NCBI GenBank assembly: GCA_023334545.1
Contig: JAADVB010000151.1
Location: forward strand, 1-47,037
Length of the DNA: 47,037 bases
Source: Salisapilia sapeloensis
Taxonomy: Eukaryota > Oomycota > Peronosporomycetes > Peronosporales > Salisapiliaceae
Reading direction: 5' to 3'
This document shows, piece by piece, positions 2,951 through 17,191 of the stretch. A model generated the notes under the pieces. The model had not been told where the DNA came from and made no database searches. It saw only the letters and a list, made by a program, of their open reading frames with translations. The number at the start of each line of letters is the position of its first letter. The stretch's first letter is position 1. Position numbers and translations under genes: made by a program.

Positions 2951-5669
2951 ATGAGCTCGAGTACGTTTGGTGCTCGGATTGCGCAGGTGCTAGAGTTTGC
3001 CGATGCACGCGGACCAGAGCTGCAAGCTTTGCATGAAACTGCAAGCTGTGCACAATTGGCGACTGATGGAGAGATTAAGATAGAAACGCAGAGGCGGCTA
3101 CGACGGCGGCGAGCCAATGCATTTAAAGCCTATCGTCTTCCCCGTCGACTTCGTACGGATAAACCATCCCAATCGGAGAATCGCCAAGAAGAAGAGTACA
3201 TAGGACTATCTGCTAAAAAGCAGTTGACACAAACGTCGGAGCCGCTAGTACAGCCAAGTGACCCATCTACACGCAGCCGAAAGCATCGTCGTCGGCCACA
3301 GCAACTGGCGATTGAACGCTCTTGGCAGCACACCCAGGCTGTAAATGCACAGAGTAATGGTGAGCAAGCTTCCAAGAATGTTTGGTTAGCAACGCATCTA
3401 TGGCACGCCAAGCGGATGCACATGGCATCTCGATATGGAATGCAATTGCCTACTAGACGATGCGACAAATCCGTCTCTGCTTCCCTCCAGGTTCTGCCAT
3501 CTCTGCTTTAGTAAATACTGACAAGATTTAAACTCAGCGACGATGTCTAGGCCCTACGTCAGAAAGCCACCGTGCACGATATGTCGTACTACGGTCTTTT
3601 GGAATTGGATGGACGAGCTCAGCTGATCCTGGAAGTCCTGGAGCTCGTTACAGTACACATTTCATTGTTCTACTAAAAAGCTTATCTGATGCAGTTTTAT
3701 AGGATCCTGGTGCGTCGGACCTCGAGGATGAATCGATCGTGTTAGGAAAACAAGAAGGACAGAGCATGCTGTATCACGCGAACGAGTTTCCGCGCTGTGC
3801 GATTTGTCCTGTGAAGTTTATGTGGCTTCCTCAACGTTCCGATCAGAAGGATGCTTCTGATATCGAGCCGCTATCGGACGATTGGAAGAATTCGAGACGT
3901 CAGGTCTGGCTGTGGATCCACTCTGCTTCCTTTGTCGAAGCAGCGAATGCAATCGGATCTGCTTGTCGAGCTGTTGTTTCTCCTAATGAAAGCATCTTTG
4001 TCTTGGACCGACGCGGAGAACTGTGTCGATTCAAGCTACGTGGTAAGGAATCTGCATCTATCTTGCGTACGCTGCTGCAACAGCCGAAAGCAGCTCATAG
4101 GGATGATACTCCCGACCTGGATGTGGATGCGAAAGATCTAGGTGGATACACGCCCAATGATGTCATGACGTTTGGTCTCCACAATTTAGGTATATTCCAG
4201 CGGGACCTTAACGCAACGTCGAATAAAAATGGAGTAGTGTACTCTGTTGTCGCACAAGACCCACGAGTGCGTCATAAACGGGAAGAAGAGAAAGCGACGG
4301 CGTGGTCTAGCTCGCTGTCTCTATTACAGGAACCAAACGCTAGTTTTACGGATGTTACGTGCCCAGTGTCTGGGGTGTCTCTAACGACGACTCAGAGTGG
4401 GGATGATGAGCCAGATACGGCGTTAATCCTCCAGCAACTCGACCACATAACATCGTGGACTCGACAGGCAGAAAGCAACGGAAACGATCCCAAGGCGACG
4501 TACCCTAACGTACCCCCACATAAAGTGCAAATATGCTCAGATGACGTAGAGATGACCAACGCTGATGAGAATACCTGTCACCCGTGCTCACTCTTGTGCT
4601 CGGTGTCTGGACGTAAAGATATCGCCGACGCTTTCCGTCCTGATGACGAATTGAATCAGGAACTGTATGAGGAGCGTCGACAGCACCGTTTGGGAGCACC
4701 CAGTCGATCTATGGAGTTGAGATCCAAGCATGATGGGAAGTTGCATCTGATGCTGATATATCAAAAGGATAAATTTCCTAGCACGGGTGGATGGGACATG
4801 ATCATGTCTCCTGCATACGCACCTTCCCTCCTGCACGCTTTATCATTTGCTGGGGCTCTTGTCGTTGGTCTTGAGGAAGATGAGGCGCTATCTACTGTCG
4901 TGAACGAATGCAGCTTCCCTAGAGACTATCCTGACACGAAAGCAGGTGAAGCGTATTGGAAAGAGCTTGCGTCTGACTTGGAAAAGAAAGATAAAAATCG
5001 TCCGAAGGGAAAGCGATATTTGTACGAAAAGGATGGAGTGTCTAATCCTTTTCAACCGGAGTGGCATCACCTCTTCTCAAGTGACGAAGACACAGAGGAA
5101 TCGTTCTGTGTTTTACGTGGTAAAGACTACTTGGAACCATTCGGCTTCCATGGCGTTGATGAAGAGGACGAAGAGCGAGAAGTAGTGCCAATGGCGATCC
5201 CAACATTGATCCGCGTGACCATACTCTTCCCTCGACGTGGTCGAGTGGAACCAAATGCAATGGTATGCATTTACGTCGACAGTATATATTCTCTAGTAGA
5301 CTAACTCGTTCATCAGTTGTTTGCACCAACACCGGATGAACAAAAGTTGTATGCGACTCGATCCAATTGGCACGGGACAGAAGTGAAGAAAGGAAGCAAG
5401 AAACAGGTTGGTCGATCATACTACATATACCAAAGTCTATAAAACGAATGAAATGTATATAGGTGAAGAATCGAGATGTTATCGGGTATGTGACATCCGC
5501 CATATATGACAAGCCGAAAGGAGCGTATCGAGCAATCGGATTTTGTGAGTGCGATCGACTACAACATCTTGCTATCTCTCAGTCGACTCCAGAAGGATAT
5601 ATGGTTATGCTGCTTCCACCTCGTGGGAACATCTATCGCCCCGTCTTGCTCCACATCGAAGCCAACTAG
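2951..5669 (+). CDS. POP1: POP1, large protein subunit of RNase P and RNase MRP
   Basis: Exons 2951-3490, 3551-3646, 3703-5262, 5317-5406 and 5463-5669 give 830 residues; introns are 60, 56, 54 and 56 nt. The N-terminal POP1 domain shows RRRRANAFKAYRLPRRLR (~51-70), a basic RKHRRRP patch and the family hallmark WLATHLWHAKRMHM (~150-163). The hallmark continues across exon 2 as DMSYYGLLELDG, which fixes both splice junctions. A POPLD-type segment follows at ~540-650 (GWDMIMSPAYAPSLLHALSFAGA). The protein works in the nucleus/nucleolus on pre-tRNA 5' ends and rRNA processing as the scaffold of the RNP. Its stop lies 77 bp from the stop of the convergent sirtuin. The final exon ends in YRPVLLHIEAN, as expected for the family's C-terminal fold. 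Confidence 0.93.
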
Positions 5670-11184: not shown

Positions 11185-13167
11185 ATGGTCTTTTCGACTT
11201 CATGCCGACGTGCTGCAGCACTACTTTGTGCATCTCTCTTTATCGGAGTACCGCTGATACGCGCGCATAATTGGATCGATTGTTTCGATCATGACCGTAA
11301 TGTGGTATATGACGACAGTGATGTTTGGGTTCTGGGTGGAAATAAAGGACATGGAGCATGTGAAGGCTACGGCTACAACTATCCTGGACGTGGAGACCCG
11401 GATATTAACACCAAGTACACCTACCTCATTTCCAGGGAAGATGTTATAAATGACGTACCAATTTGCCAGTACACATCTTCTGATGTAGATTACTCTGGAT
11501 GGAGGACTGTGCTTAATGCACAGCCCGGTGATAAGATCTACTATGCATATTTGCCAAACGGACACGTTGTAAAAGACAAAAGTGGACTTGACACAAGACA
11601 AGGTATCTACTGGTCCGGCAAATCAGACGTCCAGCTTATTTCCTACAGCGACATTGTAGACGGCAACCTTGTCGATGGAAGCTTAGCTCCATACGATGAC
11701 GGAAACTGTGGAGAGACATACGAAGATGGTGACTTTAATGGCGGTATGATCCCATCCGGACGTGCTGGTGATTATAAGCCTTGTGTTGGCACTTTTGTCA
11801 TACCAGAGAATACTGCATCCGGAACTTATCCTATGGTTTGGTGGTGGGATATGTTTACTTATGATGACGAAGAGAACATTATATCTGGAGCAGCATTCTC
11901 AACTTGCTTCGATGTTGTCATTACAGATGCGGGCAATGATCCTGCTACGCCGACTTCACCGAGTACAGATGGAAATGAGCCTCCGTCGAATCTAATCCAA
12001 AATCCTACTCCATCTCCGGGATCAACCACTCCCTCTCCGACTATATCGAGCCCTCCATCCGCAAGCGGAGACAACCCCACCAGTCCTCCACCGTCGGATG
12101 TCTCTTTCACTCCTATCACCACTCCAACCCAGGCTCCCGTCCCATCAGACCCACCAGCTCCGCCATCGACTTCACCTCCTCCAGCACCGACATCAGCACT
12201 GCTGCCTGCTCCCATTGTCTCAGACGAACCACTAGGTGCTGTGCGATACACTAGTGTGGGTGGTACCGGATCATACGGGCTAGTCACTACCATCGAATGT
12301 GTCCCTGAAGATGAATGCATTCAGGCTGATTACCCTGTCCAAGGTCCTCTTGTGCCGTTTGATGAAGACTTGACGTTAGCACTACGCGGACCGATGGATG
12401 TCGAGGAGATCTCTGTCTTTACTTTAGGCGAAAATGAATGGAACAGAGCTTCGTACTACTCCAGTCAGCAGGGCCAAGGTACACTTGAAAACATGGTGTT
12501 CTTAAACAACCGAGGCAACGATGCTATAAGCGGTACCTTCACAACATGCCACGGCAACAGCCAGTCGTTCGCAACTGCCGATGGACAAACAGCAGCATTT
12601 CAACCTACCGTATTTGACGGCTACCTTGATGATGGTGTTGAAGTCAATGTCATGTCGAATACACCATGCAATGAACAATGTGGTGCGTCTCGTGGTGTAG
12701 CCTATGAAGGGTGGGCTGGCGCTTACAAGATTTTCATGATAAAGTCGAGAATGCCATTTGGGCAAGGAGGAATTGATATGCCTGCTATATGGCTCTTAAA
12801 TGGTCAAGTAGTCCGAACGGCACAGTACAGTTGCAACTGTCGTGGCGTTGGAACGGATGGACGTTGGCAAGGGGGTTGTGGAGAAGTAGACATCGCTGAG
12901 ATCCTTTCTTCCGGTGGGACCGAGCTTACATCCACCGTGTTTTCATTCCAAGGTGCACGAGGCACCGAGAATTTTACAACTCGGCCAGTCGATTCTAGCT
13001 CCATCTACATCGCTCTCTTCCATGGAGATAGTGGCGACGATCGTGGCACGATCACCATTCTCAGCTACGACGAATCTGCACTCGATCTTTCCGTCGCTCC
13101 ATCTCCAGACCAAGTCCAGGAATGGCTAGACTACGCCAATGCGCAAGTTTTGGACTTTGAGAATTAA
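11185..13167 (+). CDS. secreted LPMO-like module fused to a TOS1/GH16-like glycosidase module
   Basis: A single-exon gene of 660 residues. A signal peptide (1-27, cleavage after IRA) would expose His28 as the mature N-terminus, as in copper monooxygenases. Module 1 (28-~247) has a second candidate copper ligand H127 in YLPNGHVV, many paired cysteines, and a TYPMVWWWDM...AAFSTCFDV end in which F238 could be the axial residue. A Pro/Ser/Thr linker spans ~250-345. Module 2 (~350-660) has the TOS1-type (DUF2401) blocks DMPAIWLLNGQVVRTAQYSC and GGCGEVDIAEIL; E567, D569 and E572 form the GH16-style E-x-D-x-x-E. AA17 is the LPMO family described from oomycetes and is a candidate for module 1, but I could not test this. 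The likely job is cell-wall polysaccharide cleavage or remodelling outside the cell. No GPI-type tail is seen. AATAAA directly follows the stop. Confidence 0.8.
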   Translation: MVFSTSCRRAAALLCASLFIGVPLIRAHNWIDCFDHDRNVVYDDSDVWVLGGNKGHGACEGYGYNYPGRGDPDINTKYTYLISREDVINDVPICQYTSSDVDYSGWRTVLNAQPGDKIYYAYLPNGHVVKDKSGLDTRQGIYWSGKSDVQLISYSDIVDGNLVDGSLAPYDDGNCGETYEDGDFNGGMIPSGRAGDYKPCVGTFVIPENTASGTYPMVWWWDMFTYDDEENIISGAAFSTCFDVVITDAGNDPATPTSPSTDGNEPPSNLIQNPTPSPGSTTPSPTISSPPSASGDNPTSPPPSDVSFTPITTPTQAPVPSDPPAPPSTSPPPAPTSALLPAPIVSDEPLGAVRYTSVGGTGSYGLVTTIECVPEDECIQADYPVQGPLVPFDEDLTLALRGPMDVEEISVFTLGENEWNRASYYSSQQGQGTLENMVFLNNRGNDAISGTFTTCHGNSQSFATADGQTAAFQPTVFDGYLDDGVEVNVMSNTPCNEQCGASRGVAYEGWAGAYKIFMIKSRMPFGQGGIDMPAIWLLNGQVVRTAQYSCNCRGVGTDGRWQGGCGEVDIAEILSSGGTELTSTVFSFQGARGTENFTTRPVDSSSIYIALFHGDSGDDRGTITILSYDESALDLSVAPSPDQVQEWLDYANAQVLDFEN

Positions 13168-14576: not shown

Positions 14577-17191
14577 ATGAGCAATGCTCCACCACCGTAA
14601 CCACTATCGATTATTTAGTACTTTTCATAAATTGACGTGCCATGTAGCCGTGGACCTCCTCCAGGACCTCCGCCAGGTAGACCACCAGGTGTACCGCCAT
14701 CGTATCCGCAGGCAAGAGGACCGCCTCCAGGAAGTGGACCACCTCGACCGATCGTACCAATGAACTCTCCTCCTCGCGGACCCCCAGGTTTCCATCATAC
14801 CTCCACTCGAATAAATCATGTAACTCATTGTGACCTAGGCATACAACCAAGAGGCCCACCTCCGGGAGGACCACCTACTGGACCGCCAGGTAGAGGACCT
14901 CCTGCAGGGTCTCCACCACCAAGGGGGCCACCTCCAGGTGGTCCACCTGCTGGTCCACCGGGTAGAGGCCCACCTCCAGGAGGCCCTCCTATTGGGCCAC
15001 CAGGTAGGGGACCTCCTGCAGGATCTCCACCTCCTCGTGGACCACCACCGGGCGGTCCACCAACGGGTCCACCAGGAAGAGGGCCACCAGCAGGGTCACC
15101 TCCGCCTAGAGGACCACCTCTGGGTGGCCCACCGGGCAGGGGACCTCCAGCTGGATCTCCACCACCTCGCGGTCCACCAGGACGAGGGCCTCCAGCGGGC
15201 TCACCGCCATTGAGAGGACCACCCCCTGGCATGCCTCCTGGAAGAGGTCCACCAGGTGTAGGTATGGTGGGGAGAGGTCCTCCTCCTGGAATGCCATTAG
15301 GAAGAGGACCGCCTCCAGGTATGCCGCCGAACATGGCGCCGGGTCAAATGCCAAGAGGTCCTCCTTCTGGAATGCCACCGCGAGGACCGCCGCCTGGAAT
15401 GGCACCTCCTGGACAGCCTGGCAGAGGGCCGCCTAGACCTCCTCCTGGTGTTCACTCGCCAAGTACGGAACAACCACAAGCGCTACCAGGTACTGCGACT
15501 GAAGAAGCCGCGTCAGGAGTCCCACCAAGTGGTCCGCCAGGTCCACCACGTGGCCCACCGGCACGACCACTAGAGCCTACAAGCGTCGCACCACCTCCAG
15601 GAACAGTGGAAGACTCGACGCCATCATTGCAACCATCAGGACCAATGGCTCCGCCTAGAGGACCTCCTGGACCTCCTCGTGGTCCACCTGGTAAGTGTCA
15701 TCGACAGTACAAAACTATCTTTTCATGTGGTAACCTAGTCAAGCAGGACCTCCTCGCGGCCCACCTGGACATCCAGGCAATGCTGCTTCAGGAAGTATTC
15801 CACCACAAGCACTTCCACCGAGTGGAGCGTTCGATCGCTTTGGAAAGTTGACAATCAAAGTACTTCGTGCTTTTGAGTTGAAAAAGTTGGGTATGATGGA
15901 TACAGCCGATCCGTTCGTGAGGTTAACGATTGGGGCACAAAACTACCAGACGAAGGTGCACGAGAAAGGAGGGCGGAATCCAGAGTTTGATGAAAGCTTT
16001 GAGTTTAATATTTCAACTGAGAAGGAGCTTGTACTGGAAGTACTAGACAAAGAAGATGGAAGTAAAGACCGGATGATGGGACATGCAAGAGTCGACATTG
16101 TCCCGTGGTTGACAAAAGGTAACTTTGATGGAGACATTGATCTTATCGCAAACAAGGACGAGCAAGCTGGTAAGCTCTCCGTTAGTGTCAAGTTTATCAA
16201 ACCAAGTGTCCCGTCCAATGCGCCTATTAAGGAACCACCAACTGCACCCCCGGTTCTATCTGGTCCAGCGGTTGCCCCACTACCTCCTGGCAGCAACGCA
16301 GTAAACGTTCCAGGCAGCACGGCTGCGATCGCTCCATCGGAACCTCCTCGAGATCCGAATGGGAAGTTTACTGATAAGGAGATCTTGGAAGCATTCCAAG
16401 CGTTTGATCTCGATCATAATAACTATGTCGGTGCTGCTGAAATTCGACATGTGCTGATTAACATCGGTGAGTCGCCGACGGATGAAGAAGTGGATGAGAT
16501 GATCAAGATGGTAGATAAGGACGGTGATGGACAAGTGAGCTTTGATGAGTTTTATGCGATGGTCACGAAGGGCCAGAAGCCACCTCCTGGCTTTGGTCCT
16601 ACCCCGTTACCTGTTGGCGGACAGCCAGCTGGATCATCTGCACCTGTTTCAACTGGAGCTCAAGCCATTCAACAACGTAAAGAACGGAAGTCGGCTTTAG
16701 AGGAGTTTGCTCGGGACAATGGGATCAAGTCAGAAAGTGTGAAGAAAGCGTATAAACGGTTCCAAGCAACAGATCAAGACGACTCTGGTCTAGTTGACTA
16801 CGCGGAGTTCTGTGAAGTTATGCAAGTGGATCCGTCGCCAGTGTGTCAAAAAGTCTTCCAACTCTTTGATAATGAACGCATCGGGAAGATTGACATGCGT
16901 GAGTTCTCTATCGCGCTTTCCAACTTTTCCGGTGCAGAGAAGGAAGAGAAGCTCAAGTTTGCCTTCTTAGTCTACGATAGTGATGGAAACGGAGTGCTCA
17001 CGAGAGCGGAGCTTGTTCGTATCCTGAAAGCGAACCACATGGCGTCGAGTGAGGCCGAGGTGGCCCGTAAGGCGGACACAATAATGGCGGCGTCGCAAAA
17101 AGACGGAAATCGTGACAACGTCTTAACCTTCGACGAGTTCGCGGTTGTAGCGAAGAGATTTCCGAATATTCTCTTCCCAGCCTCTCTATAG
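14577..17191 (+). CDS. Pro/Gly-repeat, C2-domain and multiple EF-hand calcium-binding protein
   Basis: Exons 14577-14596, 14648-14787, 14839-15690 and 15747-17191 give 818 residues. The ATG lies in a 20-nt first exon (MSNAPP). Residues ~7-360 are a low-complexity tract of GPP, GRGPP and [10 protein letters not shown] units. A C2 domain follows at ~372-490 ([24 protein letters not shown]...), with acidic DTADP and DKEDGS loops fit for calcium-dependent lipid binding. Up to six EF-hands come next: loops near 558 ([12 protein letters not shown]), 594 ([12 protein letters not shown]), 680 ([12 protein letters not shown]), 712 ([12 protein letters not shown], degenerate), 748 ([12 protein letters not shown]) and 786. 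The protein probably links calcium signals to membranes, with the Pro-rich arm binding SH3, WW or profilin-like partners. The 51-nt intron 14788-14838 is stop-free and in frame. Confidence 0.85.
14648..15690 (+). repeat. Pro/Gly-coding low-complexity repeat tract
   Basis: Imperfect tandem units encoding GPP, RGPP and PPGGPP, mostly from ggaccacct/ggtccacca-type nonamers. Apart from one 51-nt intron the tract is continuous. The regular codon pattern keeps the opposite strand open too (14825-15334, -), which is an artefact of the repeat. Confidence 0.8.

Follow-up and report, generated by a model that had tools for sequence, protein, structure and literature searches.

A predicted histidine-brace copper module joined to TOS1 in a secreted protein of Salisapilia sapeloensis and other oomycetes

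The contig JAADVB010000151.1 of the oomycete Salisapilia sapeloensis (assembly GCA_023334545.1), analysed here over positions 1 to 47,037 and called the window, carries a gene for a protein of 660 amino acids. Judging from predicted folds, this protein joins a lytic polysaccharide monooxygenase (LPMO)-type copper module to a TOS1 module that would cut glucan, both on one secreted chain. We read it as a secreted bimodular wall enzyme of oomycetes, in which a histidine-brace copper module and TOS1 would act jointly on the wall, and put the probability of this reading at about 0.5.

An earlier note on this DNA had described one uninterrupted gene, and the raw DNA agrees: positions 11185-13167 of the forward strand form a single frame without a stop. 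The signal peptide, the mature module starting with His and the Pro/Ser/Thr linker, which the same note had listed, were found as well, the leader and His28 by eye and the linker by composition. The features of the gene are:

11185..11265, + strand: signal peptide, residues 1-27, read by eye from the sequence
11266..11940, + strand: module 1, residues 28-252, DUF7492 with LPMO-like fold, predicted His-brace copper module
11266..11268, + strand: His28 codon, mature N-terminus and predicted first copper ligand (family alignment)
11563..11565, + strand: His127 codon in an NGH motif, predicted second copper ligand (family alignment)
11896..11898, + strand: Phe238 codon (GAAF), inferred axial residue, Tyr in relatives
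11941..12237, + strand: Pro/Ser/Thr-rich linker, residues 253-351 (composition)
12238..12423, + strand: Tos1_N (Pfam: PF10290), residues 352-413, E 6e-13
12436..13122, + strand: Tos1_C (Pfam: PF10287), residues 418-646, glycoside hydrolase family 16 (GH16)-like domain, E 7.7e-55
12883..12900, + strand: laminarinase-type ExDxxE motif, E567-V-D569-I-A-E572 (motif search)

Module 1 and its predicted copper site

The leader of the window protein ends in PLIRA and is followed by His28 within HNWIDC, with cleavage expected before this His; in most aligned DUF7492 relatives the leader also stops immediately ahead of a His. DUF7492 (Pfam: PF24320) was matched at residues 60-252 with E 3.8e-12 and 46.4 bits against the curated cut-off of 27. 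This match places module 1 in a family that has no function in the Pfam library, and the LPMO fold is a proposal of the present analysis. The structure model of module 1 adopts an LPMO-type beta-sandwich, and in the structure comparison its best fold match is an LPMO of auxiliary activity family 15 (AA15), with 15% identity in the structural alignment.

We aligned the family to look at the putative copper ligands. Out of 67 sequences given, 66 were aligned, namely the window protein, the stand-alone DUF7492 protein L006 of the same genome and 64 database proteins, while P0016 remained unmatched; 15 of the 66 rows had also built the alignment profile. Position 28 is His in 61 rows and Gln in one, with gaps in P0009, P0055, P0073 and P0090, each of which seems to have a truncated, misjoined or divergent N-terminus. 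At position 127, 64 rows have His, one has Asn and one a gap. At position 238 there are 62 Tyr, three gaps and one Phe, which is that of the window protein. The axial role given to position 238 rests on a short, non-significant hhalign alignment with LPMO_10, which paired GAAFSTCFDVVI with EAFYGCSDVVL and served only as a hint. The window protein deviates at three of the 49 conserved positions, Phe238 included.

Four public gene models that combine a pentatricopeptide repeat (PPR) protein with DUF7492 (P0008, P0009, P0065 and P0073) look like misjoined neighbours, and the predicted start of the mature protein consequently lies in the interior of these models.

The TOS1 module, its relatives and its surroundings

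Tos1_N and Tos1_C follow the linker in order, with 49.4 and 186.4 bits against cut-offs of 27 and 27. The TOS1/GH16-like module of the earlier note is thus TOS1 by Pfam and predicted to be GH16-like by the structure model. Tos1_C is described in the literature, as far as excerpts of it go, as a GH16-like domain with a circular permutation. The three ExDxxE columns (E567, D569, E572) are invariant in both a 33-row and a 9-row alignment. Of the 99 linker residues, 31 are Pro, 18 are Ser and 14 are Thr, and linker length and composition vary among the relatives. A thaumatin or GH64 match was not found in the window protein at E <= 1 in the Pfam scan, nor was any NCBIfam match at E <= 10.

The earlier note had proposed to look for the same architecture in oomycete proteins, and at least six further proteins with DUF7492, Tos1_N and Tos1_C were found. 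P0001, P0012, P0014 (Albugo laibachii) and P0015 (Pythium oligandrum) are above the Pfam cut-offs in our scans, and P0010 and P0013 are included by database annotation. P0017 is a more degraded seventh fusion, with DUF7492 at 15.3 bits and therefore below the cut-off of 27. For Phytophthora this is no evidence that the fusion is absent, as one similarity search missed fusions that another detected, and a further search scored the 7991 candidates sharing most words. The nearest species-named relatives are oomycete proteins. Fusion proteins are already present in public databases, some of them under the name glucan endo-1,3-beta-D-glucosidase. Next to P0015 in the locus numbering of P. oligandrum is 003052 (P0086), which codes for a stand-alone DUF7492 protein.

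In a quick tree of module 1, which has long branches, the eight fusions group in a single clade apart from the 58 stand-alone rows, with a Shimodaira-Hasegawa-like approximate likelihood ratio test (SH-aLRT) support of 98. Two trees were made of module 2. In the second, the eight fusions form one clade (100/97) together with the Globisporangium proteins P0011 and P0016, which have no module 1; in the first, a quick tree, this pair is nested inside the fusions. P0041 (short match) was excluded from both module 2 trees and P0037 (long branch) from the second; in the quick tree long branches were also flagged for the window protein, P0012 and P0017. Taken together, the two clades would be explained by a single fusion event followed by a single loss, or by two incomplete gene models instead of the loss. 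Common descent of the fusions is supported, and the fusion is old.

The Salisapilia genome (19.5 Mb, 452 contigs) contains at least three further TOS1 genes (L002, L003 and L004) and at least one stand-alone DUF7492 gene (L006). L003 was matched by both Tos1 domains and, under the cut-off, by thaumatin (22.6 against 27.4 bits); it is likely a homologue of OPEL, the known oomycete protein discussed below. In a midpoint-rooted quick tree the TOS1 of the fusions lies on the side of the bacterial L012 and the fungal P0031, apart from L002, L003 and L004 (split 99). Because the fusion TOS1 splits from these three proteins of the same genome, there may be two TOS1 lineages in oomycetes that differ in origin. 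Two bacterial metagenome-assembled genomes carry TOS1 frames next to a GH64 beta-1,3-glucanase frame (Pfam: PF16483). In L012:2392-5087 (Myxococcales) the neighbour of the GH64 frame (E 1.2e-29) has Tos1_N and Tos1_C, and in L014:847-3314 (Proteobacteria) it has Tos1_C (GH64 E 1.3e-28). These adjoining frames correspond to the two parts reported on one chain in OPEL.

Elsewhere in the window, a frame with a POPLD domain (3766-5304, + strand) has a companion frame at 2951-3511 (+ strand), and the two may be exons of one POP1 gene. A long Gly/Pro/Arg-rich repeat frame (14760-15851, + strand) lies just upstream of a frame with C2 and EF-hand domains (15893-17191), and these may form one gene with an intron. 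A scan of the window for bacterial promoters and terminators and a motif scan gave nothing informative.

Comparison with known proteins

The closest layout is that of OPEL and the OPEL-like protein I06 (PMC7219551; here and below, articles are cited from excerpts of their text). These proteins combine a thaumatin-like protein-GH64 part, a Gly-rich stretch and TOS1, so that they share the secreted layout, the low-complexity stretch and the C-terminal TOS1 with ExDxxE. They differ in their N-terminal module, which is thaumatin-like/GH64 there and has a predicted LPMO fold here, and the clade of the fusion TOS1 excludes the OPEL-type TOS1 of the Salisapilia genome. A TOS1 module with a different N-terminal module is therefore already known in OPEL.

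An LPMO and a glycoside hydrolase on one chain are already known too, in multimodular AA15 proteins with GH9 or GH18 (PMC8615602). AA15 LPMOs include oomycete ones from Aphanomyces (PMC8393829). The present fusion differs from AA15 in the low identity given above, in the absence of a match to LPMO_10 (Pfam: PF03067) and in its partner, which is TOS1. AA16 proteins of fungi and oomycetes (PMC6420742, PMC10088020) are alike in the LPMO fold, which is predicted here, and in having two His and a Tyr; they are reported in Phytophthora and Pythium and carry C-terminal extensions or glycosylphosphatidylinositol anchors. Their motif is Q-T/N-Y, whereas DUF7492 has A-A-Y/F in its place. The bacterial LPMO10 within a multi-modular chitinase is comparable in bringing an LPMO and a chitinase together on one protein and differs in being a bacterial LPMO10 with a chitinase partner.

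Known TOS1 proteins share Tos1_N and Tos1_C with the window protein, but the fungal match P0031 (Cristinia sonorae) differs from it in having TOS1 domains only, without DUF7492. A 2010 title by Steczkiewicz appears for TOS1 in reference lists.

Proposed mechanism, alternatives and meaning

Removal of the signal peptide would make His28 the free N-terminus. On the predicted LPMO-type beta-sandwich, His28, His127 and the aromatic residue 238 would form a copper histidine brace. The flexible linker ties this module to TOS1, a predicted GH16-like domain with ExDxxE as its presumed catalytic residues, which would bind beta-1,3-glucan and cut or re-join it. TOS1 would thereby bring the enzyme to the matrix of beta-1,3-glucan, where the copper module could oxidise a neighbouring chain of cellulose or beta-glucan, leading to local loosening of the wall. 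Domain order and motif conservation are observed and the folds are model-based, while copper binding, oxidation, glucan cleavage and the target are what we infer from them.

Several results weigh against this mechanism. Foldseek matches of module 1 are weak, with none at E <= 0.001; an NPC2 protein takes rank 1 and antibody chains are also listed. Sequence searches of the PDB at E <= 10, by phmmer with module 1 and with a profile built from seven DUF7492 proteins that stand alone, returned no solved LPMO; besides a scaffoldin protein they matched ten unrelated chains. The same searches gave no sign of similarity to AA17, although an AA17 entry was not confirmed in that PDB copy; among the 50 structure matches listed for module 1, AA17 and X325 are absent as well, which excludes neither. 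An hhalign comparison of the DUF7492 alignment with three of the 15 LPMO_10 loci, leaving out L019 and 11 partial matches (L021-L031), gave a probability of 0.2%, the same as for the TOS1 controls. The LPMO_10 profile was not matched in the window protein (E <= 1), in ten relatives (E <= 10) or in the Salisapilia genome (E <= 0.001). For module 2, Foldseek again gave no match at E <= 0.001, and folds other than GH16 appear from rank 9 down. An incomplete OPEL-like TOS1 protein produced no zone on laminarin or Avicel, according to the part of PMC7219551 at hand. The earlier note would have been refuted by the lack of an LPMO-like fold in module 1 or of a GH16-like fold in module 2, and neither applies to the structure models. 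Of its LPMO-like module, the predicted fold and the conserved His pair stand and a match to LPMOs at sequence level does not.

UniRef gives P0076, another relative, the name chitin-binding type-4, which is not borne out, because the LPMO_10 profile gives no match to this protein even at E <= 10.

Conservation of the site also has exceptions within the fusions. P0012 holds both the Gln at position 28 and the Asn at position 127, so that both putative ligands are lost together, while at 41 of the 49 positions that the remaining rows conserve it agrees with them. P0017 is without the second brace His and deviates at 12 of the 49, and the Globisporangium pair has no module 1. The copper site is therefore not always needed. 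The TOS1 parts of P0012 and P0017 retain the ExDxxE columns despite the loss of brace His.

Two positions before the aromatic residue, position 236 is Ala in 61 of the 66 rows, with one Thr, one Ser and three gaps. If position 238 is the axial residue, DUF7492 lacks the N/Q/E-X-F/Y motif of AA9, AA10, AA11 and AA13 (PMC6420742). Moreover, there are His-brace proteins for which polysaccharide cleavage was not detected in the work cited, namely X325/Bim1 (PMC7924993) and MtAA16A and AnAA16A (PMC10088020). Because of this Ala and of these proteins, caution is due in calling module 1 an active LPMO. Module 1 could instead be an LPMO-fold copper protein that does not cleave polysaccharides, either a copper carrier like X325/Bim1 or an H2O2-producing small-molecule oxidase as reported for MtAA16A, with TOS1 only as its wall anchor. 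We hold this to be somewhat unlikely, since the full putative first sphere of N-terminal His, second His and Tyr is conserved in the family, an AA15 LPMO ranks best among the fold matches (though the predicted fold shows no function), and cellulose cleavage is reported for AaAA16, which belongs to the same family as MtAA16A (PMC6420742).

A second question is which wall would be the target. The fusion could be directed against foreign walls, those of a host plant or of prey among fungi or oomycetes, or it could be a secreted elicitor of the OPEL type whose TOS1 is recognised by plants. The TOS1 part and secreted multi-module layout shared with OPEL-like proteins (PMC7219551), the likely OPEL homologue L003 in the same genome and the reports of oomycete AA15 and AA17 LPMOs as virulence factors (PMC8393829) speak for such a role. 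The clade of the fusion TOS1 nevertheless leaves out the OPEL-type TOS1 of the same genome. Furthermore, the fusion is retained both in Albugo, an obligate plant biotroph, and in the mycoparasite P. oligandrum, which suggests a shared housekeeping role, and we regard the foreign-wall or elicitor role as unlikely. We consider it likelier that the oomycete acts on its own wall, because the fusion is old and retained in species of different lifestyle and because the oomycete wall consists of beta-1,3-glucan and cellulose.

It is very improbable that the gene is an artefact of two adjacent genes read as one frame. The linker is of low complexity and some database relatives do look misjoined, as in the PPR models P0008 and P0009, but the frame is open throughout in the raw DNA, the same domain order recurs in six other proteins, and the fusions form one clade on module 1 and, with the two rows lacking module 1, one clade on module 2.

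DUF7492 is named in none of the open-licence PubMed Central papers searched, and among the matches listed no such paper brings LPMO, oomycete and TOS1 together. AA15, AA16 and AA17 are reported from oomycetes (PMC8393829), and one survey predicts AA9 in Pythium (PMC7720654). Beyond the reading of the single protein as a bimodular wall enzyme, we tentatively propose, at a little less than even odds, that DUF7492 is an unrecognised family of His-brace copper oxygenases, widespread in oomycetes, with Ala in the second sphere in place of Asn, Gln or Glu, and that the TOS1 fusion combines oxidation and hydrolysis on one chain to work on the oomycete wall with its mixture of cellulose and beta-1,3-glucan. 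The database name glucan endo-1,3-beta-D-glucosidase hides the second module of these proteins. If DUF7492 is indeed an additional family in which the surroundings of the copper differ, it would offer a ready test of the role of the second sphere in oxygen activation, with P0012 (without both His) and P0017 (without one) as natural controls, and the TOS1 partner points to a first candidate substrate.
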